Shown: piece by piece, positions 4,108 through 44,075 of the stretch | How positions within the stretch are numbered: the stretch's first letter is position 1 | Layout of the letters: each line of letters starts with the position of its first letter | Assembly: GCA_021787845.1 (NCBI GenBank) | Contig: JAJYLH010000014.1 | Location: 1 to 64,000, forward strand | Source of the DNA: Myxococcales bacterium | GTDB taxonomy: Bacteria > Myxococcota > Myxococcia > Myxococcales > JAJYLH01 | DNA: 64,000 nucleotides | Direction: 5' to 3' | Made by a program: the position numbers and the translations under genes | Notes under the pieces: model-generated | Told to the model about the DNA's origin: nothing | The model's input: the letters and a program-made list of their open reading frames with translations, nothing else | Databases searched by the model: none

Positions 4108-4454
4108 GCATCCTCCCGACCGGCGGGAGGACAGCGGCCTTTGGGCCGAGAGTCGAGCCGCCGCGCTTGCATCGCGCGGGAGATGCGAGCGCACTAGCCC
4201 CCATCGCCACGGGCTTGCCATCGCCGATGGGCTTCGTTGCACTCCACCCATCCTACGGTTTGGGTTGCGGGCGCCGGCCCGTGCAGGGAGGCGTGGATAT
4301 CCAGCAACCGGATAGGCGTGAGCGATCGACCGGGTCGCGGGAGACGCCCGTGGGCGACCCGGACGATCCGCGCCGAAGCCATCGGAGCGTTCTTCAGCCG
4401 GCGGCCAGCGGAAAGAAACACCGGAGCCGGCCAGCAGCTCCGGTGCCACACCCG
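4108..4454. other. Gene-poor gap with half copy of ATGGGTGGA-type repeat
   Basis: This gap between the amtB 3' end and the AlbA_2 fragment has no supported gene. Positions 4226-4256 match one arm of the palindromic repeat at 7208-7291 (gatgggcttcg...cacccatcctac). The amtB terminator lies at 4411-4445. Confidence 0.6.
4411..4445 (-). terminator. Rho-independent terminator of amtB
   Basis: On the minus strand, shortly after the amtB stop codon, a perfect 9-bp stem (CACCGGAGC / GCTCCGGTG) with a 9-base loop is followed directly by TTTCTTTC. This is the clearest intrinsic terminator in the window. Confidence 0.85.
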
Positions 4455-5702
4455 TCAGGTCGCGCCGCCACCCAGGTCGTAGGCCGTCTCGCCGTGCAGC
4501 TCCTGGTCGAGCCCCTTGGTCTCGACGACCTCGTCGACCCGCACCGGCGTGAAGACGTTGATGACCTTCAAGAGCGCCATCGTGATGACGAAGGAGTAGA
4601 CCGCGGTGATGGCCGCGCCCGCGCACTGGACGCCGAACTGCTTCCAGTCGCCCTGGATGGCGCCCTTGACGCCGTTGACCGTCGCGACCGCGAAGGCGCC
4701 GGTGAGCACGATGCCGATGAAGCCGCCCACGCCGTGCACGCCCCAGACGTCGAGCGCGTCGTCCAAGCTGCGGCGCATGCGGAAGCGGACCGCCGCGTAG
4801 CACACGAGCGCCGAGGCGAGCCCGATGAGCACCGCCGCCCAGGGCCGCACGTAGCCAGCCGCCGGGGTCACCGTCGCGAGGCCCGCCACCGCGCCGGTGA
4901 GCGCGCCGGTCATCGTCGGCTTGCCCTCGCGCCACCAGGCGACGACGAGCCAGGTGATCATCGCGACCGAGCCGGCGATGTCGGTGTTGACGAACGCGGT
5001 CGCGGCGATGCCGTTCGCGGCGAGAGCGCTGCCGCCGTTGAAGCCGAACCAGCCGAACCACAACAGGCCCGTGCCCAAGGCCACGAAGGCGATGTTGTGC
5101 GGCGCCGTGCTCTCGCCGGGTGCGAGCTTGCGGCGGCCGACGAAGATGACCGAGGCCAGGGCGGCGATGCCGGCGCTCAGGTGGACCACGATGCCGCCGG
5201 CGAAGTCGACGAGCCCCCACTGGGCGAGGAAGCCGCCGCCCCAGATCCAGTGCGCGAACGGGATGTAGACGAGGAGGCTCCAGCCGACGAGGAACGCGAG
5301 GAAGGCTTTGAAGCTCACCCGGTCGGCGAAAGCCCCGGTGATGAGCGCCGGGGTGATGATGGCGAACATCTCCTGGTAGCCGAAGAAGACGAGGAACGGG
5401 ATGGTCGGCCCATGGGCGGGGTTCGGCGCCATCCCGACGTTGTGCAGCGCGAAGTACTGGAGCGGGTTGCCGATGAGCCCGTGGATGTCGCGCCCGAAGG
5501 CGAGGCTGAAGCCTCCGAGCACCCAGATCGCCGTGACGACGCCCATCGCGATGAAGCTCTGCATCATGATGGCGAGGACGTTCTTGCGCCGGACGAGACC
5601 GCCGTAGAAGAACGCGAGCCCTGGCGTCATCAGGGCGACGAGCGCCCCGCTCACGAGCACGAACGCGGTATCTCCGGGACTGATGTGGCCGATCGTTCCC
5701 AT
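4455..5702 (-). CDS. amtB: Ammonium transporter AmtB
   Basis: A 415-aa inner-membrane ammonium channel of the Amt/Mep/Rh family with about 11 hydrophobic segments. Seen are the N-terminal GDTAFVLVSGALVALMTPGL, FFYGGLVRRKN, the HWIWGGGFL region, LWFGWFGFNGGS, and DVWGVHGVGGFIG, where the pore histidine region lies. The start is fixed by GGAGGAA four bases upstream of the ATG. AmtB conducts ammonium and is usually gated by a PII protein from an adjacent glnK; no glnK is next to it here. Transcription ends at a strong terminator. Confidence 0.95.
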   Translation of the reverse strand: MGTIGHISPGDTAFVLVSGALVALMTPGLAFFYGGLVRRKNVLAIMMQSFIAMGVVTAIWVLGGFSLAFGRDIHGLIGNPLQYFALHNVGMAPNPAHGPTIPFLVFFGYQEMFAIITPALITGAFADRVSFKAFLAFLVGWSLLVYIPFAHWIWGGGFLAQWGLVDFAGGIVVHLSAGIAALASVIFVGRRKLAPGESTAPHNIAFVALGTGLLWFGWFGFNGGSALAANGIAATAFVNTDIAGSVAMITWLVVAWWREGKPTMTGALTGAVAGLATVTPAAGYVRPWAAVLIGLASALVCYAAVRFRMRRSLDDALDVWGVHGVGGFIGIVLTGAFAVATVNGVKGAIQGDWKQFGVQCAGAAITAVYSFVITMALLKVINVFTPVRVDEVVETKGLDQELHGETAYDLGGGAT

Positions 5703-5928
5703 GGTGTTCCTCCGTCCGATGCGCGGGACCTCCCGCTGGGCGCGGCTGTCTACCAGAAGCGCCCGGCGGCGGCAAGCCGCGGCGCGCAACGATGGTCCGA
5801 GGCGTCGGGTCGCTTCCGGCGCGCATCGGCATCCTCCCGGCGGGCGCCAGAGCCCCGTTCGGGGCGAAGACGTTGACCTGCGGGCAGGGGCGTGCGACAG
5901 TGCTCGGGGTTCGACGTCGGAGGACGCG

Positions 5929-6195
5929 ATGTCCGAGTTGGCGAGCAAGTCCCGTGGATGGCTGTGGCGCGTCGCGCTCGCAGCCGCCGGTGGCCTCGCG
6001 GCCCTCGCTGGCGCAGCCGGGTGCGGTCCGATCATGTACGGACCCGTGGCGTACGGCCCGCCGCCGGCGGTGTCCTGCACGAACGACCAGACCTGCGTCG
6101 ACGCGCGCGGCAGCACCTGGTACTGCGAGAAGCCGGCGGATGGCGGGACTGAGGGCGTCTGCCAACCGGGCCAGGCCGACGCGGGAACGCCGTGA
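5929..6195 (+). CDS. Small Cys-rich lipoprotein, family member 1 of 4
   Basis: An 88-aa predicted lipoprotein. ATG follows GGAGGACGCG. A basic n-region (KSRGWLWR), hydrophobic stretch and lipobox AAG-C precede a short mature part ending TWYCEKPADGGTEGVC. It is the first of four tandem paralogues sharing the signal peptide and the YCEKADGGTQG(I/V)C motif, the most divergent copy. Mature cysteines probably form disulfides in the periplasm or at the outer membrane. No function is known to me. Confidence 0.75.
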   Translation: MSELASKSRGWLWRVALAAAGGLAALAGAAGCGPIMYGPVAYGPPPAVSCTNDQTCVDARGSTWYCEKPADGGTEGVCQPGQADAGTP

Positions 6196-6252
6196 TCCTG
6201 ACACGCGCGCGGACGATGTGACGCCGCAGTGCAACCGGCCGTCGAGGACAGC

Positions 6253-6492
6253 ATGTCGAAGGTCGCTCGCAAGTCAGGAAGTCTCTTCGCCCGCGTCGGG
6301 CTCGCCGCCGCGACCGGCCTCGCGATGCTCTTGGGTGGCTGCGGTCCGACGGCGGTGTTGTACGGCCCGTGGCAATGCGGTGCCAACCCGCCACGCTCGT
6401 GCGTCAGCAACGTCGACTGCGTCAGGTGCGCCGGTACTGGCTGGTACTGCGAGAAGGCGGACGGCGGGACGCAGGGCATTTGCAAGCAGTAG
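6253..6492 (+). CDS. Small Cys-rich lipoprotein, family member 2 of 4
   Basis: A 79-aa lipoprotein starting MSKVARKSG, with gagga upstream and lipobox LGG-C. The mature part has four or more cysteines and ends GWYCEKADGGTQGIC. The N-terminus (MSKVARKSGSLFARVGLA) is nearly the same as in the two following genes, showing recent tandem duplication. Function unknown. Confidence 0.75.
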   Translation: MSKVARKSGSLFARVGLAAATGLAMLLGGCGPTAVLYGPWQCGANPPRSCVSNVDCVRCAGTGWYCEKADGGTQGICKQ

Positions 6493-6551
6493 ACCGATGC
6501 GAGAACGTCGGACGATGCGACGCCGAAGTGCAACGGGCCGCGGAGGCCAAC

Positions 6552-6818
6552 ATGTCGAGGGTCGCTCGTAAGTCGGGAAGGCTCCTCGCCCGCGTCGGGC
6601 TCGCGGTCGTCAGCGCCGTCGCCATGGTGGTCGGCGTTGGCTGCGGCCCGCCGACACCACTGTACGGTGTGGCGCCCTGTATCAACTTACCGGTCACCTG
6701 CGCCAGCGACAATGAATGCTCCCGCTGCTCCGGCGGCTCTGTTTGGTACTGCGAGAAGGCGGACGGCGGGACGCAAGGCGTATGTGCTCAAGGCCGGGCG
6801 GACGCAGGGACGCCGTGA
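6552..6818 (+). CDS. Small Cys-rich lipoprotein, family member 3 of 4
   Basis: An 88-aa lipoprotein (MSRVARKSGRLLARVGLA, lipobox GVG-C). The mature sequence has paired Cys motifs (CASDNECSRC) and the family signature VWYCEKADGGTQGVC near the end. Spacing to its neighbours is about 60 bp and the intervals are themselves similar, so the duplication unit includes the leader. Function unknown. Confidence 0.75.
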   Translation: MSRVARKSGRLLARVGLAVVSAVAMVVGVGCGPPTPLYGVAPCINLPVTCASDNECSRCSGGSVWYCEKADGGTQGVCAQGRADAGTP

Positions 6819-6875
6819 CCCTGCGACGCCCATGGACGATGTGACGCCGAAGTCTAATGGGCCAGTGAGGCCAGC

Positions 6876-7172
6876 ATGTCGAAGGCCGCGCGAAAGTCGA
6901 GAAGGTTTCTCGCCCGCGTCGGGCTCGCGGTCGTCAGCGCCGTCGCCATGGTGGTCGGCGTTGGTTGCGGGCTGTGGCCAATGGTCGAGTACGGTCCGCA
7001 CACCGACGCGTCATGCGGTGCTCCTGGCGCAACGTTTATGTGCTTCGACGATGCAAGCTGCGCGAACGCCGGATGTGGATCGGGCTGGTACTGCGAGAAA
7101 GCCGATGGCGGGACGCAGGGTATCTGCACCTACGGGAGCCGACCTGACGGTGGATCGCCGGATGGAAACTAG
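6876..7172 (+). CDS. Small Cys-rich lipoprotein, family member 4 of 4
   Basis: A 98-aa lipoprotein (MSKAARKSRRFLARVGLA, lipobox GVG-C). Its signal region is almost identical to member 3, but the mature region differs (MCFDDASCANAGCGSG) before the shared GWYCEKADGGTQGIC and a Gly/Asp tail. It lies 140 bp upstream of the radical SAM gene, separated by a palindromic repeat. Function unknown. Confidence 0.75.
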   Translation: MSKAARKSRRFLARVGLAVVSAVAMVVGVGCGLWPMVEYGPHTDASCGAPGATFMCFDDASCANAGCGSGWYCEKADGGTQGICTYGSRPDGGSPDGN

Positions 7173-7207
7173 CGCCGTGGCGACTGCCCTTCCCCTCGAA
7201 CCAACAC

Positions 7208-7291
7208 GTAGGATGGGTGGAGCGCCAGCGGAGCCCATCATGCGGCCATCGCTCGACGACGATGGGCTTCGCTCCGCTTCACCCATCCCAC
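7208..7291. repeat. Palindromic dispersed repeat (ATGGGTGGAGCG family)
   Basis: An inverted repeat with outer arms gtaggatgggtggagcg and cgctccgcttcacccatccc plus inner arms gagcccatc/gatgggcttc. A half copy lies at 4226-4256. It sits between the last small lipoprotein gene and the radical SAM gene and could form a hairpin in the transcript. Confidence 0.75.
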
Positions 7292-7312
7292 GCGACGTGC
7301 GCGACGGTCACG

Positions 7313-8440
7313 ATGGTGCCTTCGATGCCTGCTGAGTCCGGGCGGTTCGCGGAACGGCTCGGGTCGCTCGGGCGGGTCGTCCAGTGGGGCGTCCACGAGC
7401 TCGAGCTGGCCGCGCTCCGGCGCGCGCATCCTCTGCGCTACCTCTTCCTCGAGGTCACCCGCCGCTGCAACTTGCAGTGCGCCTACTGCGGCAGCTCCTG
7501 CGGGCCCGAGATCGAGCGCGACGAGCTCTCCATCGACCAGTGGAAGGAGGTCGTCCAGCAGATCGCCCGCGACTTCGAGGCGCCCCAGGTGATGGTGGCG
7601 ATTACCGGCGGCGAGCCGCTGATGAAGAAGGGCGTCATCGACCTGATGGCGGAGATCGATCGGCTCGGGTTTCCCTTCGGGATGGTGACCAACGGGCATC
7701 TGGTCTCCGCCAAGACCGCGGAGAAGCTCGTCGCCGCCGGCATCGATTCGATCACGCTCTCGATGGACGCGCCCCGTGCGCTCAACGACGAGCTGCGTGG
7801 CGCCGGCAGCGGCGAGGCGGTCGCGAAGGCGGTCGAGAACCTGCGCGCCGCGGGCTACCAGGGGATTCTCGAAATCTTCAGCACCGTGACGACGCCGGCG
7901 CTCGCCGAGCTCGGGCGGATGCGCGACCAGGTCGCGAAGATGCGCATCTCCCGCTGGCGGGTGTCGCCGGTGATGCCCATCGGGCGCGCCGCCCAGCGGC
8001 CGGACCTGGTGCCCGACGCCGCGGGCGTCCGCCGCCTGCTGGAGTTCGTTCGCACGTCCCGCGAGGACGGCCTCTTGCCGGTGCCCGAGTCCTGCGAGGA
8101 AGGTTTCCTCGGCCGGCGCTACGAAGGCAAGGTCCGTCCCTACCTCTGGGCGTGCCTCTCCGGCATCACCGTCGGCGGCATCCTCTGCGACGGCCGCATC
8201 GGCGCCTGCCCCGAGCTCGCCGACGCGTTCGTCCAGGGCGACGTCAAGCGCGAGCGGTTTCGCGACGTGTGGGAGAGCCGCTATCAGGCCCTGCGCGACC
8301 GCTCCTGGGCCACGAACGGGATTTGCCACGATTGCGAAGAGCTCCGTCGCTGCCAGGGCGGCGCGCTCCACCTCTACCGCTCGCAGGACGAAGAGCCGCT
8401 GCGCTGCCTCTACCAGATGGCGGTCGCCGGTCAGCCGTGA
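7313..8440 (+). CDS. Radical SAM/SPASM-domain enzyme
   Basis: About 375 aa from the ATG at 7313; an ATG at 7325 is also possible. The radical SAM cluster motif is TRRCNLQCAYC at residues ~49-59 (CxxxCxxC), followed by the GGEP motif (ITGGEPLMKKG). The C-terminal ~110 residues contain further cysteines (WACLSG, GACPEL, ICHDCEELRRCQGG, LRCLYQ) typical of a SPASM domain binding extra Fe-S clusters. Such enzymes modify peptides, maturate other enzymes or, in PqqE/NirJ-like groups, build cofactors. The substrate is not identifiable. Four Cys-rich peptides lie just upstream but have lipoprotein signals, unusual for RiPP precursors. Confidence 0.88.
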   Translation: MVPSMPAESGRFAERLGSLGRVVQWGVHELELAALRRAHPLRYLFLEVTRRCNLQCAYCGSSCGPEIERDELSIDQWKEVVQQIARDFEAPQVMVAITGGEPLMKKGVIDLMAEIDRLGFPFGMVTNGHLVSAKTAEKLVAAGIDSITLSMDAPRALNDELRGAGSGEAVAKAVENLRAAGYQGILEIFSTVTTPALAELGRMRDQVAKMRISRWRVSPVMPIGRAAQRPDLVPDAAGVRRLLEFVRTSREDGLLPVPESCEEGFLGRRYEGKVRPYLWACLSGITVGGILCDGRIGACPELADAFVQGDVKRERFRDVWESRYQALRDRSWATNGICHDCEELRRCQGGALHLYRSQDEEPLRCLYQMAVAGQP

Positions 8441-8632
8441 AGGGGTATCTCCTTCGTTCAGCTTCAGCGCGGGCTCTTCTCCCGTGGCACGGGCGTCCTC
8501 GCCCGTGGCCGCTTGGAGATCTGCCATGCCGGCGGTTCGGCGAGGCTTCCACGGGCGAGGACGCCCGTGCCACAGGAAAATGGGAGCCGGGCACCAACCT
8601 GAACGAAGCCGATACCCCCTCAGCCGTGAAGG
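8440..8632. repeat. Composite miniature inverted-repeat element
   Basis: The 455-bp gap 8441-8895 contains no gene. It holds a nested palindrome. The outer arms pair aggggtatc...cttcgttcag (from 8440) with its complement near 8598-8630. The inner arms, 8484-8507 and 8550-8573, are perfect inverted copies of gtggcacgggcgtcctcgcc(cgtg), and each arm is itself a hairpin. Copies of the inner part occur at ~39699-39797 and ~47266-47362, with a degenerate half at ~51577. The rest of the gap (8633-8895) shows nothing clear and probably contains the promoter of the long operon. Confidence 0.8.
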
Positions 8633-8895
8633 CGCGGCGCTGCCTTCCAGAATTCGCCTCGCCGGTGTTCCCGCTCAGCCCGAGCCCTTCGGCAAGCGCA
8701 GGATGTCGATTCGTCGGATGGCTCGGAGGCGCCATCCGTCGCGCATCGCCGTTCGCCCGTCCCCGCGAGCGAGGTTGGCGCGTCGACATTTCTTGACGGC
8801 ACCGTCAACATTTCGCGATGGACCGGTGTCAAGAGCAGCGCTCTCCTGTCGAACCTGTGCGGCGGGGGACAGTGTGTGTCGGGAGATCGGAAGCC

Positions 8896-9666
8896 ATGAT
8901 GGACCGAACTCGCTCGTGGCGGTCGCCCGTCGTCCTCGCAGCGGCGGTCAGCTTCGCCCTCGCGTGCGCGCCGGCGGGCACCGCCCCACCACCGGCCTGC
9001 ATCGACACCTGCCAGTCCACCGGCGCCCAGTGCGGCGAGGTCTGCGGCGTCTCCTGCGGCACGTGTCCCGGCGCCGGAGTCTGCCGAGAGGGCCGTTGCG
9101 TCTGCACCCCGCAGTGCGCGGGCAAGAGCTGCACCGACTCCGACGGCTGCGGCGGCACCTGCGGTCCCTGCGACGCCGACGTGACTTGCAAGGATTGCAA
9201 GCTGCGCCTCGTGCGGGTGGACCAGACCATCGTCCTCGGCGAAATCTCCCGCGCCACCATCGCGCTCGAATCGACCGCCACCGGACCCGACCCGCGCCTC
9301 GCGGACGTCCGCGTCGCCGTCGACCCGCCGATGGAGCTCCAGACCATCGAACCGGGACCACCGCTTCAGGCGGCCGGCAAGCGCCTCTACCGCTTCACCG
9401 AAACGAACCTGCCCTACTTCCAACTCGCCGACGGGAGCTTCCAGCTTCTCGTCTTCTCGCAGGACAAGGCGCTCTCCATCGACCCTGGTCGCTGGCTCAC
9501 GATGACCTTCGCGCGTCCACCCGGCGCGCACGGACCCGCGTACAAGACGGTCAGGTTCCACCTGGTCCACCGCGCACAGACCCTCGCGCCCATCGCGTCG
9601 GACGATGCGCTCCAAACGGGAGCCTGGGACGCGCCGCTCGCGATTTCCGCGGAGGCCCAGCCATGA
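8896..9666 (+). CDS. Cys-rich lipoprotein with C-terminal cohesin-like domain (operon gene 1)
   Basis: About 256 aa. Signal sequence MMDRTRSWRSPVVLAAAVSF with lipobox LAC. Residues ~30-95 carry a dense cysteine segment (CGEVCGVSCGTCPGAGVC, CTDSDGCGGTCGPC). Residues ~105-256 form a predicted beta-sandwich with cohesin-like spacing: an extracellular V-x-V strand pattern, FQLLVFSQDKALSIDPG and WLTMTFARPP. A second lipoprotein of similar plan is encoded at 23123. The stop codon overlaps the next start (ATGA), so it heads a translationally coupled series. The cohesin assignment is an inference from pattern; profile comparison would be needed. Confidence 0.7.
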   Translation: MMDRTRSWRSPVVLAAAVSFALACAPAGTAPPPACIDTCQSTGAQCGEVCGVSCGTCPGAGVCREGRCVCTPQCAGKSCTDSDGCGGTCGPCDADVTCKDCKLRLVRVDQTIVLGEISRATIALESTATGPDPRLADVRVAVDPPMELQTIEPGPPLQAAGKRLYRFTETNLPYFQLADGSFQLLVFSQDKALSIDPGRWLTMTFARPPGAHGPAYKTVRFHLVHRAQTLAPIASDDALQTGAWDAPLAISAEAQP

Positions 9667-12600
9667 GCCGCCTCGCGTGTTACGTGGTGCCGCTCCTCCT
9701 TCTCGTGCCCGCGGTGGCGCACGCGCGGCCGCTGTCGCTCGAGGAGATCGACACGCTGTCCGGGTGGCTCGACTGCAACGACGCCTGCGACGCGGGCCCG
9801 GCCGACAACGCTCAGGTCTGTCATCAGGCTTGCGGGCCGTCGCAGGACATCTGGGAGAAGGACGGGGTGCCGCCGGTCACCCGAAACGATCTCTACCTCG
9901 CCAAGCTGGAGTACGCGGACGCCGGCCGCGGCACCGAAATCTGCTACCGCGACAATGGCGCGGTGGTGGTGCCGGCGGCTCTGTGTCCCGGAGCGCTCTG
10001 CCTGAGCACGCCGGCGTGCTCGGCCTCCGACTGCGCCCAGCCCGAGGATTCGCGGCCGACCAACTGTCCCGACCTCGTGTGCCAGGCGATGCCCACCCGC
10101 GACGCCGCGAGCTGCGCCGACGACGGCGACGGCCTCCCGCAGTGGATCAAGGACTACGCCGGAAGCCAGGGCATGGCCGCCGGCGGGCCTTGTCAGACCG
10201 ACGCCGACTGCGATTTCCGTCACGCGTGTGGCCTCGATCCCAACTCGCAACTTCCGCTCTGCCTGCCTCGCCAGTGCAACGGCGCGTGTACCGCGTTCCA
10301 CCTGGAGCTGGAGTCGGCGGACGATCAACAGGCGCTCGTCCATGTCTTCTACGACTACTCGCCGATTCCCGCGCGCGTCCTGGACCTGCACATCGACTAC
10401 GACCGGCAAAACCTGCTCCTGCAGGACGCGCGGCCGCTGCCGAACTTGACCGCTTTCGGCAAGCAGCTCGCGGTGGAGCACACCTCGACCGGCGAGCTGC
10501 GGCTGACCGTCTACGACCCCGCGTCGTCCAGTCCGATTCCGACCGGACCCATCGTCGAGCTGGTCTTCCAGCGCATCGGCGATGGCGCCGCGAACGTCTC
10601 GTTCTCCACCGACCCCACGGCGATGACCGACGCCATCGCTCCGCTCCAGGGAGATCAGAACCGGCAGAACGATCTGTCGGACCGCATCTTGTGGGGCGCG
10701 CCGGTGACCATTCCCGCGCGTTCCGAGGAGCAGAACCAACGGCTCCTGCTCTGGTACGGCTTCGAGAGCGCGGACGCGCCGCAGTCCTACTCCAACGTGC
10801 CCGATGCGACCGCGCTGTGCGCCGAGGTCCCGACCTGCGCGCTGGAGACCGATCCGCAGCAGAAGGCCATCATCACCGCGCGGCTCGCGGCGCTCCAAGA
10901 AGGCACGGTCTCGACGGCCGGACGCATCGACGGGGTCGTGCGCGACGGCGCCTACCTCGATGGCACGGGCGACCACTTGGAGCTGCCGGTGCAGGTCTTG
11001 AGCCCGCTCGTCGCGTCGGGTCAGAGCTTCTCCTATTCGATGTGGTTCTACACCGAAGGAGACACGTCCGCCGACACCGCCGGCGAGCCGCAGATTCTCT
11101 TCAGCCACAACGGTCCCGACGAGCGTACCCACTTCGGGCTCGTCGTCGACTTCGCGCCGGACGACACGGCGAGCGTCTCGTTCTTCGCGGGCGATCTCGC
11201 GGCGGGCTACCACGTGGCGCGCACGACGATGGCCAAAGGACTAGCGCTGCGCACCTGGCACAACGTCGGCTTCACCCTCGATGCCGCGACCGGCGTCGTG
11301 AACCTCTACTTCGACGGCGCGGCCGCGGGCTCGACGCAGCTCACGACCGTTCCGCCTTCCATCGTCTGTCCGGCGTTCGCGAACGGCAGCGACGTCATCC
11401 TCCACCAGGAGGGCGACTTCATGGGAGGCCAGCCGCCCGAGGCCGTCTGGTACGCGGACCGGCAGAACGGGCTGTTCTCTGTCCGCCGCACCGATCCGAA
11501 CGGGCTACAGACGATGCCCGTCGTCAGCGACCCGGCGCACAACTTCCGCGACATCGACGTGAGCCCCGCCCTCGGGCTCATCGCCTACAGCTCCGACGTG
11601 AGCGGCTCGAGCGAAATCTGGATTGCCGACCTCGACGGCTCCAACGCGACGCAAGTGACGAAGGGCTTCGGCGACCAGTCGCGCGGCATCGAGGCGCGCC
11701 GTCCGAGGTGGGCGCCCGACGGCTCGGGGCTCATCTTCGAGAGCAACGTCTACAGCGTGCCCGACGAGCACAACACGAGCCGCGGCTACCAGCTCTACTT
11801 CGTCGGGTTCGACCCGGTGAACCGCGTCGTCTCCACCGACCTCGACGGGGGCGTCAAGGTCGCCCAGCTCGACTACGACGCGCTGCTCGCGAGCCAGAGC
11901 ATCGGGGCGGTCCAGCTCACGCGGTCCGACGGCAATCATCAGAACGCCTTCTGGGTCCACGGCCGCGGCGTTGGTGGGGTGCGCGGCAGGGTGCTCTTCG
12001 ATTCTTCCGACAGCTCGTTCGAGGGACACCAGGTGACCTGGCTCGACATCCCGCAGAACATTCGCGACTCCACCGTGACGCCGGTGACGGGGCTTTCGAC
12101 GAGCGCCGAGGAAGCGCGGCTCCTCGCGGCGTTCCGGCAGGCGCGCCCGGGCGCGACGCCGCCGGAGGTCGTCGAGGTCCTCTACGACAAGAGCACCACT
12201 CGGTACGCGGCATCGACCCAGTATGCGGCCGACGCGGTCGAAGGAGGTTCGACGGCGACGGTAAGCGTCCGGTTCACGCCGAGCGGGTACGACCCCAACT
12301 GCTGGGACACGAACCACAACCACGTCAAGGACGCCAACGAGGACTTGAATCACGACGGCGCCTGGGACGTGAAGGACTGCTACCCGAACGAGATCCACGA
12401 CCTCTACGTCGCGTTCGATCCGAGCACCTATCAGCCGCGCCTCCAGCCGGCGGACACGGCCGCGGCGGCGCAGGGCACCGTCGAGGCGGCCTTGGGCAAG
12501 CAACTCGTGTTGACGGAGCAGGATGGCTTGACCGGCTCGTTCGTCCGCGTGGAGGTGAAGACCGCCGACGGTGACGCGACGCCGCTCACGCCGGGATTGC

Positions 12601-15600
12601 TCGCGACGCTGAAGTTCGATCGCATCGAGTCCGGAACCGCTTCGCCAGCCTTCGCGGCGGACCAGCGCAAGCACGATTCGAAGCCCTTCGTCGCGAACCT
12701 CTCCACGGGCGCTGCGCCCACGGCGGTCGACCTCGCGGGGCTGCTCGATGATGTCGAGACAGGCGTCTTCTCCCCGGACGGCTCGCGGCTGCTCCTCTAT
12801 GGCACCAGCAACTCGCGGCCGCAGCTCGTGCGTAGCGCCTCGCTCACGACGCTCGCCGGCGGCACGCGCGTCGGCGCGCAGCCCGAGGACATCGAGGGAC
12901 TGACCTGGGTTCGGGAAGATCGCTACTACCCGTGCAACTGGGTCGGCGCCTATCTGAACCCGTCGAGCAAGCAGTACACGATGGCCCTGCACGGTGGCAT
13001 CGACGAGGTCAAGGTGTGGGCCGGCCTGCGTTCGCCCGAGGCGTTCGTCTCCGACGCGGCCGAGGGCTTCGAGCGACTCACGAAGGACGGCCGCGCGGGC
13101 CAGGTGCCATCGCTCCTTCCTTCCTGCGGAACCTCGAATCTCGACTGCCCGCCGTACTACGCCTGCGTCAACGCTCAATGCGTGATGGTCGCGTGCGACC
13201 CGAACGACGCCTACGCCTGCTCGACCACCGGGGGCCGTTGCTCGATGCGACCGGCCTCGACGAAGCAGGAGAATCCGGGCTACGGCTTCGTGTGCTCGAG
13301 CGATTGCGCGAGCGACCAACAGTGCTTCACGCAGACCTGCCTCAACGGTCCCTGCCGGTTCTGCGACACCGCGACCTCGACCTGCATGGAGTGTCGCAAC
13401 ACGACCGAGGACTACGGCTCGTTCCAGATCAGCACCGTGCAAGGCTGTCCCGATTCCAACGACTACTACTGCGACCACGGCGCCTGCCTCACCGAGTGCT
13501 TCGCGAACCAGGACGGGCACTCCGTGCCGCTGTGCGATCCGACGCTGGAGTACTGCTCGCACGGCCGGTGCGTGCTCCGAGACTGGGACTGGTCCGACTT
13601 CGCGCCCGCGTCGTTCGGCGGGCTGACCGAGACCGTCTACGCCAAGCTGCCGGACGGCATCCGGCGCACGGTGGCGCTGGGCGAGATGGAGCCGGTGACC
13701 ATCAAGGCGTACGGCATCGGCGACCGCGGCATTCCGCCGGAGCTGGTGGTCGAGGGCAAGCTCGAAGGCCAAGACGGAGCCCTGTACGGCGGCGACTGGT
13801 TCCGCATCGGGAAAGTCTTCGTGGACAACCGCACGCAGATCGAGGCGGAGGCAAACCCGTACGTCTTCGAGGTGCCGCATCCGATCACCTCGCTGCGGGC
13901 GCGGCTCATCGACTCGCCCTACCGCAACCTCGACTACGCCTCCGATGGCTTGGGTGCGGCCGACAAGGATTTCTGCCTGAACGATCTGGCGCTCTCGGCG
14001 GCCCGAGGCGGCGGCACGCCCGACCCAGCGCTCTGCCACGAACGGCCGCCCGGAAGCTCGTTCTACCTCGGCTACGACGGGGACATTCCCGACTACGTCG
14101 GCAACCTCGACTGCATCGACCACAGCGACACGGATTGCCAGAACCTCTCCGATCCGCTGCGCGAGTATCTGCCCGGCGGCTACCCCGCGGTGATCATCAC
14201 CGAAGCCGACGTCGGAAGCGCCCTCGCGCCGATTTCCACGAACATGGCTTGCTCGTACGAAGGCACGACCTCGCCCGTCGAGCCGGGCACCGGCCGCCAG
14301 CGCATGCTCTATTACGGGGATGTCACGAAGGAAGACTCGCCCGCGACGACGGCCTTCTGCGCCGGCGGCAACTGCACGCCTTCGGGCCTCATCGACTTCA
14401 CCGCGGCGACCGGCGGCGGCTACGGAATCCTCAACTGCAACTACAACGACGGCAACGGCACGCTCGCGGACGTCGAGTTCAGCGTGCCTCCGTACGTCCA
14501 GGGCTTCACGAACGGCACCATCACCGAGACCGCCAACGCCTGCACGGTGGAGCTGGACCAGAACCGCACCGAGCTCTGCTACGAAGCGATGGGCGGCGAC
14601 ATCTCCATCGACCCGCTGAACGACGACGTCAGTGTGTTCCAGACGCTCGAGTTCTCGATTCCGAAGGGCTTCGCCGACGACCAGGGCTTCACGAGCGCCG
14701 CGCTGCCGAGCTATCCATTGACCGCGACCGTGTCCGGCCTCACCTCGGGCAGCGTCGTGGTCTCCGACGGCGCCGAGCAGGTGACGCTGACCTCCTCGCG
14801 CCCGAGCGCGGCCTTCCCGACGCCGATCGGTCAAGGGAAGCGATTCGCGCTGTCCATCGTCTCGCAGCCCTCGTCTTCGGCGAATGTCTTCTGCGCGGTG
14901 GACGCGACGAGCGGTTCGGGCAACATGCCGTCCGGTGGCACGACCGCGAAAGTCGATTGCGGTCCGGTGGTCTATCTGAGCGGCACCGCCGACGGCATTC
15001 AGGGCGACCGCGCGCTCTTGCACTTGACGACCGATCAGTACGTGGCCGGGAGCATGGTCGCGATGAACGGCCGCTTCGACCTCGCGGTCAGCCGGAACGG
15101 CACGTTCCAGTTCGCGGCTCCGTTGCTCCAGGGCGTCGGCTGGACCGCAACCATCGAGAGCGCGCCGCGGGCTCCGACCGAAACGTGTACGCTCGCGCCG
15201 TCCAGCGGCACGATGCCGGCCGGCGGCGAGAGCGACCTCGTCCTGCACTGCGACATCGTCAAGCCGCGCGTCCTGGGCGGCACGCTCACCGGTCTACCCA
15301 CGGGCGATTCGATCACGCTCTCGAACTCGGCGACCAGCGAATCGCTGCCCTTGAGCGCCGACGGCGCGTTTTCGTTCGCCCAGAAGGTCGCGCCGGGCAA
15401 GGCGTATGCCGTGAGAATCTCCGCCGGCCCTTCGACGACCGGCGTCACGTGCGCCATCAGCAACGCCACCGGGACCATGCCGAACCAGGACGTCGCGAGC
15501 CTCGCGGTGAGCTGCTCGTCGCGGCAGACCTACCTCGTTTCCGCGACGACGACCGGACTCGAAGGAAAGAACCTGACGCTCTCGCTCAACGGTGCGCAGA

Positions 15601-16766
15601 CGCTCGCCGTCGCGGCCGATGGAACGCAGAGCTTCTCCACCGAGCTCCTCGACGCGGCCTCCTACTCGGTCACTGTTGCCACGCAACCCAACCTGCCCGA
15701 TCAGACCTGCCAGGTCATCAGCGGCAGCGGCACCATCCAGGGCGCGAACGCCTCGGTGCAGGTCGTCTGCACCAAGGTGGATACGACGAAGCTGTTCGCC
15801 ATCGGCGGCATCGTGTCCGGTGTGTCCGGCGCCGGGTTGAAGCTCTCGAACAACGGCGCCGACAACGCCACCATCACCCAGAACGGCGCCTTCGCCTTCC
15901 CCACCCCGGCGACGACGGGCAGCCTCTACAACGTGACCGTGGCCCAGCAGCCGGTTTCGCCCGTGCAGTTGTGTACCGTCCAGAACGCCAGCGGAACGGT
16001 GGGGACTGCTGATGTCACGAATATCCAGGTGGCTTGCGTCGATGCCTCGGCGGTGAAGCTGGAGGTCGGCGCGATCAGCTCGGCGGCGATCGACATCCGG
16101 GCGGTACTGATCTCGCAGGACACCGGCAGGCTCGTCGCGCGCACCGCCGATGGGGCCAAGGTGCCCGCGGGCGGCGGCGACATCATCCTCGTCGACCCCA
16201 GCCATGCCGGCGATTCCAGCCCGCCGCCGGAGACGGCGTTCCCGGCAGGCAAGTACCAGCTCTACGCGCTCTTCAACGTGAACCAGACCAAGGACAGCCT
16301 GGGGCATCCCGTCTGGAGCCCCGGCGATCCGGGTGTGTCGATGAGCCTGACCACGACCGCGGGGCAGGAGACGGTGCAGTCGATTCAGGTCTCCGACTTC
16401 GTCGCGACCGTGGACCCGTCCATCAAGATGACCGGCGGCAGCCCTGGCGACACGAGCCCGGCGCATTGCTACTGGAGCTATCCGACCGGCAAGCCGCTGC
16501 CCCTGCCGCCCTGGAGCGACTCGCCGGTGGTGGCGACGGACCAGCTCACCTGTCCGGCGGGCGGAAAGTGCTGGACCGGCGGAGGAGTCACCAACATCAA
16601 CGAGCCCCTGGTTCCCGGCAAGTACGACCTCGCCTGCTGGGTCGACGTGGGCCAGGGCGGAACCGATCCCAACGGCGTCCTCGATTCCCCCGACTACGTG
16701 GGCGTCAAACCCGGGGTAAGTGTCACCGCCGCCCAGGTGTCGGTCAGCCTGGTGGGTGCACCATGA
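9663..16766 (+). CDS. 2367-aa secreted multidomain protein: cohesin-like, LamG, beta-propeller, Ig-like repeats (operon gene 2)
   Basis: Signal peptide 1-21 (LLLLVPAVAHA). In order: a Cys-rich segment (~33-210); a cohesin-like sandwich (~211-350; GPIVELVFQRIGDG); a LamG/concanavalin-like domain (~360-586; WYGFES, GDHLELPV, YSMWFYT, WHNVGFTLD, VNLYFDG); TolB/PD40-type propeller blades (~590-850; SEIWIADLDGSNATQVT, RRPRWAPDGSGLIFES); a D-rich calcium-binding-like stretch (~880-905; DTNHNHVKDANEDLNHDGAW) inside a second sandwich; more Cys-rich sequence (~1150-1310); an unassigned region; and five beta-sandwich repeats of ~85 aa (~1685-2130), each ending with a Cys in (I/V)xC after a SGTM/SGT motif. 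The frame upstream of the ATG at 9663 is spurious: the ATG overlaps the preceding stop and starts the signal peptide. Likely a surface-binding protein. Confidence 0.85.
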   Translation: MSRLACYVVPLLLLVPAVAHARPLSLEEIDTLSGWLDCNDACDAGPADNAQVCHQACGPSQDIWEKDGVPPVTRNDLYLAKLEYADAGRGTEICYRDNGAVVVPAALCPGALCLSTPACSASDCAQPEDSRPTNCPDLVCQAMPTRDAASCADDGDGLPQWIKDYAGSQGMAAGGPCQTDADCDFRHACGLDPNSQLPLCLPRQCNGACTAFHLELESADDQQALVHVFYDYSPIPARVLDLHIDYDRQNLLLQDARPLPNLTAFGKQLAVEHTSTGELRLTVYDPASSSPIPTGPIVELVFQRIGDGAANVSFSTDPTAMTDAIAPLQGDQNRQNDLSDRILWGAPVTIPARSEEQNQRLLLWYGFESADAPQSYSNVPDATALCAEVPTCALETDPQQKAIITARLAALQEGTVSTAGRIDGVVRDGAYLDGTGDHLELPVQVLSPLVASGQSFSYSMWFYTEGDTSADTAGEPQILFSHNGPDERTHFGLVVDFAPDDTASVSFFAGDLAAGYHVARTTMAKGLALRTWHNVGFTLDAATGVVNLYFDGAAAGSTQLTTVPPSIVCPAFANGSDVILHQEGDFMGGQPPEAVWYADRQNGLFSVRRTDPNGLQTMPVVSDPAHNFRDIDVSPALGLIAYSSDVSGSSEIWIADLDGSNATQVTKGFGDQSRGIEARRPRWAPDGSGLIFESNVYSVPDEHNTSRGYQLYFVGFDPVNRVVSTDLDGGVKVAQLDYDALLASQSIGAVQLTRSDGNHQNAFWVHGRGVGGVRGRVLFDSSDSSFEGHQVTWLDIPQNIRDSTVTPVTGLSTSAEEARLLAAFRQARPGATPPEVVEVLYDKSTTRYAASTQYAADAVEGGSTATVSVRFTPSGYDPNCWDTNHNHVKDANEDLNHDGAWDVKDCYPNEIHDLYVAFDPSTYQPRLQPADTAAAAQGTVEAALGKQLVLTEQDGLTGSFVRVEVKTADGDATPLTPGLLATLKFDRIESGTASPAFAADQRKHDSKPFVANLSTGAAPTAVDLAGLLDDVETGVFSPDGSRLLLYGTSNSRPQLVRSASLTTLAGGTRVGAQPEDIEGLTWVREDRYYPCNWVGAYLNPSSKQYTMALHGGIDEVKVWAGLRSPEAFVSDAAEGFERLTKDGRAGQVPSLLPSCGTSNLDCPPYYACVNAQCVMVACDPNDAYACSTTGGRCSMRPASTKQENPGYGFVCSSDCASDQQCFTQTCLNGPCRFCDTATSTCMECRNTTEDYGSFQISTVQGCPDSNDYYCDHGACLTECFANQDGHSVPLCDPTLEYCSHGRCVLRDWDWSDFAPASFGGLTETVYAKLPDGIRRTVALGEMEPVTIKAYGIGDRGIPPELVVEGKLEGQDGALYGGDWFRIGKVFVDNRTQIEAEANPYVFEVPHPITSLRARLIDSPYRNLDYASDGLGAADKDFCLNDLALSAARGGGTPDPALCHERPPGSSFYLGYDGDIPDYVGNLDCIDHSDTDCQNLSDPLREYLPGGYPAVIITEADVGSALAPISTNMACSYEGTTSPVEPGTGRQRMLYYGDVTKEDSPATTAFCAGGNCTPSGLIDFTAATGGGYGILNCNYNDGNGTLADVEFSVPPYVQGFTNGTITETANACTVELDQNRTELCYEAMGGDISIDPLNDDVSVFQTLEFSIPKGFADDQGFTSAALPSYPLTATVSGLTSGSVVVSDGAEQVTLTSSRPSAAFPTPIGQGKRFALSIVSQPSSSANVFCAVDATSGSGNMPSGGTTAKVDCGPVVYLSGTADGIQGDRALLHLTTDQYVAGSMVAMNGRFDLAVSRNGTFQFAAPLLQGVGWTATIESAPRAPTETCTLAPSSGTMPAGGESDLVLHCDIVKPRVLGGTLTGLPTGDSITLSNSATSESLPLSADGAFSFAQKVAPGKAYAVRISAGPSTTGVTCAISNATGTMPNQDVASLAVSCSSRQTYLVSATTTGLEGKNLTLSLNGAQTLAVAADGTQSFSTELLDAASYSVTVATQPNLPDQTCQVISGSGTIQGANASVQVVCTKVDTTKLFAIGGIVSGVSGAGLKLSNNGADNATITQNGAFAFPTPATTGSLYNVTVAQQPVSPVQLCTVQNASGTVGTADVTNIQVACVDASAVKLEVGAISSAAIDIRAVLISQDTGRLVARTADGAKVPAGGGDIILVDPSHAGDSSPPPETAFPAGKYQLYALFNVNQTKDSLGHPVWSPGDPGVSMSLTTTAGQETVQSIQVSDFVATVDPSIKMTGGSPGDTSPAHCYWSYPTGKPLPLPPWSDSPVVATDQLTCPAGGKCWTGGGVTNINEPLVPGKYDLACWVDVGQGGTDPNGVLDSPDYVGVKPGVSVTAAQVSVSLVGAP

Positions 16767-42420: not shown

Positions 42421-43956
42421 TCAAAAGCCGAGCGTGATCGCCGGCGTCGCCCGCAGCTTGGTCACCGGCCCGCCCTCGGTCACGGTCTTCGTCTGCCCCT
42501 TGCCGCAGAAGCCGACGCCGTCCAAGCGAAGCGGCCCGGCGAACCCTTCCACGCTCTTGAGCGAGTCGCGGGTGACGACCGAGAGGTTCGCCGGGAGGAG
42601 CACCTCGTCGGTCAGGCGCCCGTCGCGGATGACCCGGCCGAACTGGATGGTGGTGCTCATCCCGTCGCGGCTGACCGCGCCTCCCAGCGAACCCTCGAGG
42701 AAGACGCCGAACGTCACGTCGCCGATCAGGTCCTCGAGCGAGGAGCACCAGCCCTCCTGCCCGGCGGGAAGGAGGTAGGTGTTGGTCATCCGCACGAGGC
42801 GCTTGTCGCCCAGCTCGGAGAAGCCGTGGCCGTTGGGCTTCTCGCCGAAGTGGTGGGCGGTCTCCCGGTTGTGGAGCTTGCCGGTGATGCGCCCGCCCTG
42901 GACGAGCCGCACCGGCTTGAGCTCCACCCCCTCGTCGTCGATGAAGTGGGTGCCGAAGCCGGCCGTCTCGTCGAACCCGCCGTCGGCCTTCAGAATCTGC
43001 CCGTCCCAGACGTCGACCAGCGCGCTCGCGAAAGGGTCGTCGGCCGGGCAGCCGTCCTTGTGGAAGAGCCCGCTCGTGCCCTGCTGAATCAGGTCGGCCT
43101 CGAAGTTGTGGCCCTCGGCCTCGTGGACGAAGACCATCGCCGTCGGCGCCAGGACGTAATGCGTGAGGGCGCTCAGCTCCGCTCCCGATAGGCGGCGGCC
43201 CTTCTGCTGGGCGACCGCCCGGCGGGTGCAGTCGGAGAGGCCCTCGACGAAGTCGCGCCGCAAGCCGTGGGCCGGGTGTCCGTCGGCGAAGAAAAAGCCG
43301 AGCGGCTGGGTGTCGCCGAGCCGGGTGCGCTGCCTCGTCGTCTTGCCGGTCGACGGGTCGCGGGCGATGGCGGTCATCTGGAGGAACGTCGAGGGCAGCA
43401 CCTGGGTCTTGAACAGCCCCTCGGTGTCGAGGACGAGCTTCTCCTCGACCTGCGCGTAGCACCACAGCTCGGTCCGGACTTCGACCGTGCCGCCGTCGGC
43501 GACGCGGGTGCAGACCTGGTCCACCTCGCGAGCGAGGGTGTCGAAGGCGAGAAGCACGTCCTCGCTGGAGAGGTCCCCGGGGCTCGCTACCCCGTAGCGC
43601 ACCCGCTCGGCGTTGGGGACCGGCGCGAGGCCGTAACGCGGGTCGGGCTCCTGGAGGGCGAGCGCCTCGAGGGCATAATCGATGCCGGGGAGCAGCTCCG
43701 CTTCCGGAAGGAGTCCGAAGCTGACCGAGAGGTGGCGCCCCTCCTCGCCGACGAGCCTGAGCTGGACCGCTCCCTTTCGGGAGAAGGGCTTCACCACCTC
43801 GTCGCCGCCGACGAGCCGCGTGTACTCGACCTTGGTCACCTCCTCGACGAGGAGGTCGGCGTACCGCACCCGGGGACGCGCTCGCTCCAGCATCGCGCGG
43901 GCGAGCTCGAGCTTGTCCGCCTCGTCTCGCAGCGCCAGCTCCTGTTGCGCCTGCAT
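42421..43956 (-). CDS. tldD: TldD-family metalloprotease, catalytic subunit
   Basis: 511 aa from the ATG at 43956 (MQAQQELALRDEADK). It contains the zinc-binding HEAEGHNFEAD (HExxxH) at ~315 and the family C-terminal G-rich domain (STTIQFGRVIRDGRLT, VGFCGKGQTKTV). Slightly longer than E. coli TldD (481 aa). TldD cleaves unfolded peptides inside a chamber formed with TldE, encoded just downstream by pmbA; the two are probably one operon. The predicted location is cytoplasmic. Confidence 0.92.
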   Translation of the reverse strand: MQAQQELALRDEADKLELARAMLERARPRVRYADLLVEEVTKVEYTRLVGGDEVVKPFSRKGAVQLRLVGEEGRHLSVSFGLLPEAELLPGIDYALEALALQEPDPRYGLAPVPNAERVRYGVASPGDLSSEDVLLAFDTLAREVDQVCTRVADGGTVEVRTELWCYAQVEEKLVLDTEGLFKTQVLPSTFLQMTAIARDPSTGKTTRQRTRLGDTQPLGFFFADGHPAHGLRRDFVEGLSDCTRRAVAQQKGRRLSGAELSALTHYVLAPTAMVFVHEAEGHNFEADLIQQGTSGLFHKDGCPADDPFASALVDVWDGQILKADGGFDETAGFGTHFIDDEGVELKPVRLVQGGRITGKLHNRETAHHFGEKPNGHGFSELGDKRLVRMTNTYLLPAGQEGWCSSLEDLIGDVTFGVFLEGSLGGAVSRDGMSTTIQFGRVIRDGRLTDEVLLPANLSVVTRDSLKSVEGFAGPLRLDGVGFCGKGQTKTVTEGGPVTKLRATPAITLGF

Positions 43957-44075
43957 GCCAGAAGCCCTCCGTCTCGGAACCGCCGTCGGCCGCGCAACAT
44001 AGCCCGCGTGAAATCGTTCCGCCACCGCCGAAGCGGGGATCGCGCGGGTGCGAACCGTCGCTATACTGGCCGGCC

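Follow-up and report, generated by a model that had tools for sequence, protein, structure and literature searches.

The stretch of DNA considered here, hereafter the window, comprises 64,000 nucleotides from a Myxococcales bacterium (contig JAJYLH010000014.1 of GenBank assembly GCA_021787845.1, positions 1 to 64,000). On its forward strand, four genes for small lipoproteins are followed by a gene for a radical S-adenosylmethionine (SAM)/SPASM enzyme, with successive gaps of 57, 59, 57 and 140 bases. A first-pass annotation had described four tandem Cys-rich lipoproteins (5929-7172) and such an enzyme, and the coordinates, the Pfam matches and the sequence bear this out. The lipoproteins share a Tyr-Gly site with the partners of related enzymes, and we lean towards the proposal that the locus is a substrate-and-enzyme set, a splicease-like system acting on lipoproteins at Tyr-Gly. 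The features are as follows, with X for any residue and the basis of each assignment in parentheses.

5929-6195, + strand: lipoprotein 1, 88 amino acids, Cys-rich, with two X-Y-G sites (lipobox AAGC; Cys-rich unit at E 4.3e-13 in the phylum profile search)
6034-6042, + strand: MYG site of lipoprotein 1 (read from the sequence)
6049-6057, + strand: AYG(PPP) site of lipoprotein 1 (sequence; aligned with relatives)
6253-6492, + strand: lipoprotein 2, 79 amino acids (sequence; Cys-rich unit profile search)
6358-6366, + strand: LYG site of lipoprotein 2 (read from the sequence)
6552-6818, + strand: lipoprotein 3, 88 amino acids (sequence; Cys-rich unit profile search; AlphaFold2 model)
6660-6668, + strand: LYG site of lipoprotein 3 (read from the sequence)
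6876-7172, + strand: lipoprotein 4, 98 amino acids (sequence; Cys-rich unit profile search)
6987-6995, + strand: EYG site of lipoprotein 4 (read from the sequence)
7313-8440, + strand: radical SAM/SPASM enzyme, 375 amino acids from the ATG at 7313, predicted Y-G modifier (Pfam, TIGR04133, AlphaFold2)
7466-7501, + strand: CNLQCAYCGSSC, the SAM-cluster cysteines with a CGSxC extension (alignment)

At the N-terminus of all four small proteins, positively charged residues are followed by a hydrophobic segment and Gly-Cys, and this lipobox suggests retained lipoproteins. The lipobox, the N-terminal region and a C-terminal WYCEK..DGGT.G.C are conserved across the four copies. The longer C-terminal sequence YCEKADGGTQG(I/V)C, at first ascribed to all of them, does not hold for copy 1, which reads YCEKPADGGTEGVC. 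In the variable middle, from the Cys-Gly of the lipobox to the next invariant Cys, a Tyr and a Gly are the only residues invariant in all four. Recent duplication, which had also been claimed, fits copies 3 and 4 (90.6% identity over the first 32 codons, 96 bases), but the other pairs have diverged; pairwise identity of the coding DNA among the four genes is 54.3-72.2%. The AlphaFold2 model of lipoprotein 3 has a mean predicted local distance difference test score (pLDDT) of 58, with Y38-G39 in a low-confidence stretch and the Cys-rich part at moderate confidence. In NCBIfam, the four proteins match neither Nif11-type nor NHLP-type leaders; they have lipoprotein signal peptides instead.

The enzyme matches Pfam Radical_SAM (1.8e-20) and SPASM (1.5e-07). 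Its best NCBIfam model is TIGR04133, rSAM_w_lipo, at 283.4 bits, below the curated cut-off of 425 and 171 bits ahead of the next-best model, the mycofactocin maturase (112.3 bits). In an alignment of 60 enzymes, the window's included, C52, C56, C59, G60, S61 and C63 are invariant, and all 60 of these clade members match TIGR04133. The AlphaFold2 model of the enzyme (pLDDT 93.1) has one long N-terminal helix preceding the radical SAM part. The enzyme gene is the sole one of its type in the 6.24-Mb genome, the next of 21 matches reaching 66.6 bits. Counting the window's own, relatives occur at E <=1e-40 in 5 of 147 genomes of the class and at E <=1e-60 in 12 of 195 genomes of the phylum; among the matches listed, TIGR04133-type enzymes are found mainly in Bacteroidales, many of animal-gut origin. 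NCBIfam assigns the family no reaction, just a number. Since the best family is rSAM_w_lipo, lipoprotein partners are normal for an enzyme of this kind, and "radical SAM-associated putative lipoprotein" is the annotated name beside TIGR04133 in Treponema and Parabacteroides records. The lipoprotein signals had been taken as an argument for a different role; they are no such argument, because lipoprotein partners are the rule in the TIGR04133 family. The lipoprotein family TIGR04134 does not accommodate the window's proteins: it matches none of the four at E up to 1 and, with E allowed to reach 10, nothing in the locus, and it was rejected as their family. Of the 195 phylum genomes, 24 have a TIGR04134 match at E <=0.001, only 1 above the cut-off; four matches lie beside the enzyme (G194, G165, G154, G015), and the rest are partial and, as tabulated, mostly inside large frames.

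A profile scan of genome contigs with the single window enzyme gave no matches. With an eight-row enzyme alignment as the query, 80 loci were taken, the best 80 of at least 227 confirmed matches, so that the sample represents the nearest relatives and not a census. Together with 17 loci from the phylum these make 97, or 93 after removal of four duplicates, window included. Partner open reading frames (ORFs) were defined as lipobox-type, 40-300 amino acids long, on the enzyme strand and within 1.5 kb (counts by locus) or 500 bases (counts by protein). The background set consisted of 51 lipoprotein-like ORFs from twenty random 20-kb regions in five phylum genomes.

By protein, YG occurs in 82 of the 90 lipoprotein-like ORFs within 500 bases of the enzyme versus 2 of 51 in random regions, and the pattern YG.?P (Y-G, one optional residue, P) in 66 of 90 versus 0 of 51. 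Since the rows are related, a Fisher test overstates the significance; the contrast as such is large. Among 125 other lipoprotein-like ORFs at these loci, a group that includes further tandem partners, 33 have YG and 14 have YG.?P. By locus, YG is found at 73 of 93 and YG.?P at 62 of 93, versus 1-8 of 93 for eleven rearranged or substituted control motifs; when all small ORFs are counted, YG.?P is found at 69 loci and ten control motifs at 9-21. None of the 16 other radical SAM ORFs found by a motif search of stretches of the window's own genome has YG.?P nearby.

The partners have in common the element X-Y-G-(x)-P, in most cases a short distance past the lipidated Cys. The commonest residues before YG are C, K, E, L and M, the second residue past the Gly is Pro at 81 of 135 sites, and in 30 of 82 lipoproteins the lipidated Cys directly precedes the Tyr (C-Y-G). 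The bodies that carry this element are unlike: transthyretin-like domains, KYGGPP repeats, short tails and Cys-rich units. All seven further loci of the class are adjoined by a Y-G lipoprotein; the partners carry CYGIPY on a transthyretin-like body, YYGPxP on Cys-rich units, or repeats of KYGGPP or AYGGPPGLDA. Three Y-G sites may also lie within one gene, and a Cys-rich unit may or may not accompany each of them (L033, L035, L127); in a Bacteroidota metagenome-assembled genome (MAG; L038:551-2439) four different tandem YGV-type lipoproteins precede the enzyme, parallel to the window's array.

This diversity bears on which residue is modified. The first-pass annotation had pointed to Cys, and radical SAM/SPASM enzymes do form Cys thioethers in other systems; sactipeptide- or ranthipeptide-like thioether formation would suit the Cys-rich partners of the window. 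Cys is not, however, common to the partners of the relatives: many have none beyond the lipidated one, and the KYGGPP and YGVPP repeat partners are nearly Cys-free. The sactipeptide model NF045574 scores the enzyme at 66.2 bits against a cut-off of 625, which does not place it among the sactipeptide maturases. Because the partners do not share Cys, the Cys route was rejected as an explanation of the locus, and we consider thioether formation very improbable. YG might also be a mere docking or sorting signal, with the catalytic target elsewhere than in the neighboring lipoproteins, a role to which its position in the lipoprotein 3 model, within a linker of low confidence close to the lipid anchor, would lend itself. 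Several observations make this an improbable reading: YG is rare in ordinary lipoprotein-like ORFs (the 2 of 51 above), YG.?P is present up to 8 times within one partner, and a TIGR04103 precursor from Nostoc that is not a lipoprotein, described below, also has a YG site.

The motif is restricted to neighbors of the enzyme. A profile of the YGP-Cys-rich unit, built from the aligned sequences of the window and three relatives, was searched in the 195 phylum genomes. At E <1e-9 the unit is found in just three of them (G000, G139, G165), always directly beside the enzyme, which supports the earlier suggestion of a pairing of small precursors and a radical SAM/SPASM enzyme like that of ribosomally synthesized and post-translationally modified peptides (RiPPs). 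Among 19 weaker matches (E 1e-4 to 1e-2), 18 start at model position >=4, thus without the Tyr, and lie in frames of 182-1536 amino acids, none on an enzyme-bearing contig. The nineteenth (G165:C311:39992-40075, E 0.002) starts at position 2, about 1.3 kb upstream of the G165 partner gene, and may be one more partner. The concern that such lipoproteins would be widespread without the enzyme does not apply to the YGP-Cys-rich family in these genomes. The DNA pattern for KYGGPP occurs in 17 of the 195 genomes; among the frames read, it lies in lipoproteins only in G084 and G138, both times beside the enzyme. When ORFs of at least 50 amino acids at the 93 loci were clustered, one family, the transthyretin-like lipoprotein (53 loci), was present at more than four. 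Because no other family exceeds four loci, the system seems to consist of the enzyme and one or more lipoproteins, although a third protein that is short and divergent could escape the BLAST threshold.

As to the reaction, the enzymes that score to TIGR04103, a family that we take to be the same as IPR026482, are informative. Spliceases, according to PMC10533398, act on XYG, with MYG and LYG as natural sites and tags such as RPLYGLPI or RP[L/G]YGLPI, and the mass loss by tyramine excision is 135.0757 Da per site. The splicease PlpX is assigned to IPR026482 and works with PlpY, a protein with a RiPP recognition element (RRE) (PMC11002830). TIGR04103-like enzymes are found in 53 of the 195 phylum genomes at E <=1e-40, none above the curated cut-off. 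Inspected by eye, about half of 32 such places have a YG precursor and the rest do not; the precursors include AKYGIPP, DYGLPPP, RYGLPP, IYGLPPP, CEYGVPPP and repeats of MRYGLRPP or KYGGP. One locus on a Nostoc plasmid bears the annotation "nif11-class peptide radical SAM maturase 3", the TIGR04103 name; its Nif11 precursor ends in ALYGLPPELF, and a 71-amino-acid protein is encoded directly downstream. Elsewhere, four short peptides in tandem, with repeats such as MYGVEPP and LYGVDRYG, come after a TIGR04103-like enzyme (L221:3635-4711), the TIGR04103-like enzymes of L237 and L238 adjoin proteins with PMYGIF, AMYGVV, ALYGVF or PLYGVF sites, and that of L259 adjoins three genes annotated DUF1843, the one of these that was translated being without YG.

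The two enzyme sets are related. An eight-row profile of the window's family scores TIGR04103-like enzymes at 152-193 bits and a small set of other radical SAM proteins at no more than 126. A quick tree of 76 rows groups the window-type enzymes in one clade (support 99) and the TIGR04103-like enzymes in another (99, with one outlier, L236, which the eight-row profile scores at 132 bits and the tree places elsewhere). The window lies in a five-row clade (100) with L033, L034, L035 and L127. E47, G60-S61 (in CxxCGS), W215 and G264 are common to both sets (60 and 31 rows) and mostly absent in ten other radical SAM proteins; this comparison group takes in L236, moved there after the tree, and two further radical SAM ORFs (L230, L232) that belonged to it throughout.

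That the enzyme modifies its partners at YG has good support. The YG precursors of the TIGR04103-like enzymes, their adjacent clade and the shared residues lead us to infer tyramine excision, in which part of the tyrosine would be cut from the backbone at Tyr-Gly, as the candidate reaction. The same motif evidence would fit other chemistry at Tyr-Gly(-Pro), such as a Tyr cross-link, decarboxylation or epimerization. PqqE and MftC act on Tyr, the mycofactocin maturase is the second-best NCBIfam model of the window enzyme, and SkfB, SuiB, anSME and PqqE are among the solved folds closest to its model. To our knowledge, however, the targets of PqqE and MftC are not X-Y-G, and X-Y-G followed by Pro closely matches the published splicease sites and the Nostoc precursor. 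We regard such other chemistry as unlikely, though the most serious alternative.

For the window, a splicease-like set of four substrates and one enzyme is accordingly the reading to which we give somewhat better than an even chance. Several points weigh against it. TIGR04103 scores the enzyme at 89.3 bits (cut-off 725), sixth in rank after the models for TIGR04133, mycofactocin, heme b, TIGR04053 and NirJ2. The fork joining the window-type and TIGR04103-like clades has a support of only 54, and the quick tree that contains it has an outgroup on long branches. The motif test on the TIGR04103-like set is weak (YG.?P at 13 of 31 loci, controls at 1-11 of 31); because this plain count is weak, the case for these enzymes rests on the form of their peptides. 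The enzyme model has no separate peptide-binding RRE domain, while PlpX works with PlpY; no third gene is present at more than four of the 93 loci at BLAST E 1e-8, a threshold that a short, divergent PlpY could escape. No PlpY or RRE partner is evident in the list of window ORFs, for which no RRE profile search was made. On the strand of the enzyme, a lipobox-type YG ORF lies no farther than 500 bases away at 72 of the 93 loci and is missing from 21; where each side extends for at least 700 bases, as at 70 loci, a YG.?P lipoprotein is present within 1.5 kb at 52. Finally, no product of the putative reaction has been observed.

We infer the reaction, its timing with respect to export and its biological role as follows. 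Each lipoprotein would initially consist of a signal peptide, a short and flexible X-Tyr-Gly(-Pro) linker and a small domain rich in Cys. In the cytoplasm, the radical SAM/SPASM enzyme would bind the linker and act at Tyr-Gly before export; lipidation at the lipobox Cys would come next, and the linker would be displayed near the membrane. The partners at L115, L125, L105 and L112 have signals resembling those of twin-arginine translocation (RR or KR, then xF), a motif not seen in the other partners, and these four signals fit modification before export. The displayed linker may be electrophilic, protease-resistant or protease-inhibiting: an alpha-ketoamide there could inhibit proteases, resist proteolysis or react covalently with a target. 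A review states that beta-residues give spliced peptides potent protease-inhibiting activity (PMC10373908), and a research paper calls spliceotide products protease inhibitors (PMC11117315); the source given in both is Scott et al. 2022.

It is tempting to propose, though more tentatively and at rather less than even likelihood, that a widespread class of lipoproteins carries alpha-keto-beta-amino acids near the lipid anchor, introduced by a partner-free splicease family, and that the window holds a four-substrate, Cys-rich version. The class would span Bacteroidota, Myxococcota, Fibrobacterota, Spirochaetota and a Campylobacterota MAG and, less clearly, Bacillota. The lipidated cysteine would then itself be spliced in the 30 of 82 C-Y-G cases. 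Should the splicease reading hold, electrophilic residues produced by backbone editing would be usual in many surface lipoproteins of bacteria, and a PlpY-free splicease would be a handy tool to place alpha-keto-beta-amino acids in proteins.

The genes of the locus, all on one strand, are likely co-transcribed as one operon, as a scan of 5700-8950 found no promoter-like (sigma-70-like) site. The same scan gave two overlapping terminator-like sites within lipoprotein 3, with 0.9 expected by chance. Also weighed was a hairpin-forming repeat before the enzyme, of the repetitive extragenic palindrome (REP) type:

7208-7291, no strand assigned: REP-like inverted-repeat element with a strong hairpin, between lipoprotein 4 and the enzyme (RNA fold of 7190-7312, z -6.09)

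Its palindrome ends are GTAGGATGGGTGGAGC. This 16-mer has 166 genome copies at up to one mismatch versus 0 for the reversed control, and many of the listed copies are inverted pairs about 60-70 bases apart; such ends are also present at 2841-2856 and 4241-4256. The reading frame of the enzyme is open from a GTG at 7217, upstream of the ATG. Downstream of the enzyme, on the same strand (8898-16766), lie a further Cys-rich lipoprotein-like ORF with no Pfam match and a very large secreted-type Cys-rich ORF. TldD and TldE had been reported elsewhere in the window; in seven scanned ORFs there is one with a PmbA/TldD domain, metallopeptidase-like (42421-44025, - strand), about 34 kb from the enzyme and with no sign of a link to the locus.

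The TIGR04133/TIGR04134 pair already has a name, and splicease chemistry is established for a class of small peptides from bacteria. As far as the literature was searched, the following are new: one Y-G site common to unlike partners, the connection between this enzyme family and spliceases, and the version with several genes for Cys-rich partners. That search found no paper naming TIGR04133, or TIGR04134 and its synonyms, and no title on this pairing under radical SAM with lipoprotein, YG motif or TIGR04103, or splicease with lipoprotein; Scott et al. 2022 (Chem 8:2659) may already include the family. The X-Y-G-(x)-P element over unlike bodies gives TIGR04133-type enzymes a definite substrate site.

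Three known systems invite comparison. Generic Myxococcota Cys modules (CxxDxxC...C) resemble the body pattern of the window lipoproteins, and 18 of the 19 weak matches of the unit profile leave out the Tyr. The TIGR04133/TIGR04134 pairs differ from the window in that the enzyme here, at 283 bits, falls below the cut-off of 425 and the lipoproteins have no TIGR04134 match; the window's bodies are Cys-rich rather than transthyretin-like, and there are four partner genes. As in those pairs, a lipoprotein gene lies directly upstream of the enzyme and Y-G follows soon after the lipobox, and the enzyme is in one clade (support 99) with relatives that score to TIGR04133. Unlike the splicease PlpXY, the window-type enzymes form a separate clade, no PlpY was found in the window, and the putative substrates of the reaction proposed here are lipoproteins, not Nif11 or NHLP leader peptides. 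Like PlpXY, the window has a radical SAM/SPASM enzyme with precursors bearing X-Y-G-(x)-P beside it; its X-Y-G sites, MYG, AYG, LYG, LYG and EYG, are like those of splicease substrates, and CxxCGS, W215 and others are shared by the window-type and TIGR04103-like enzymes.

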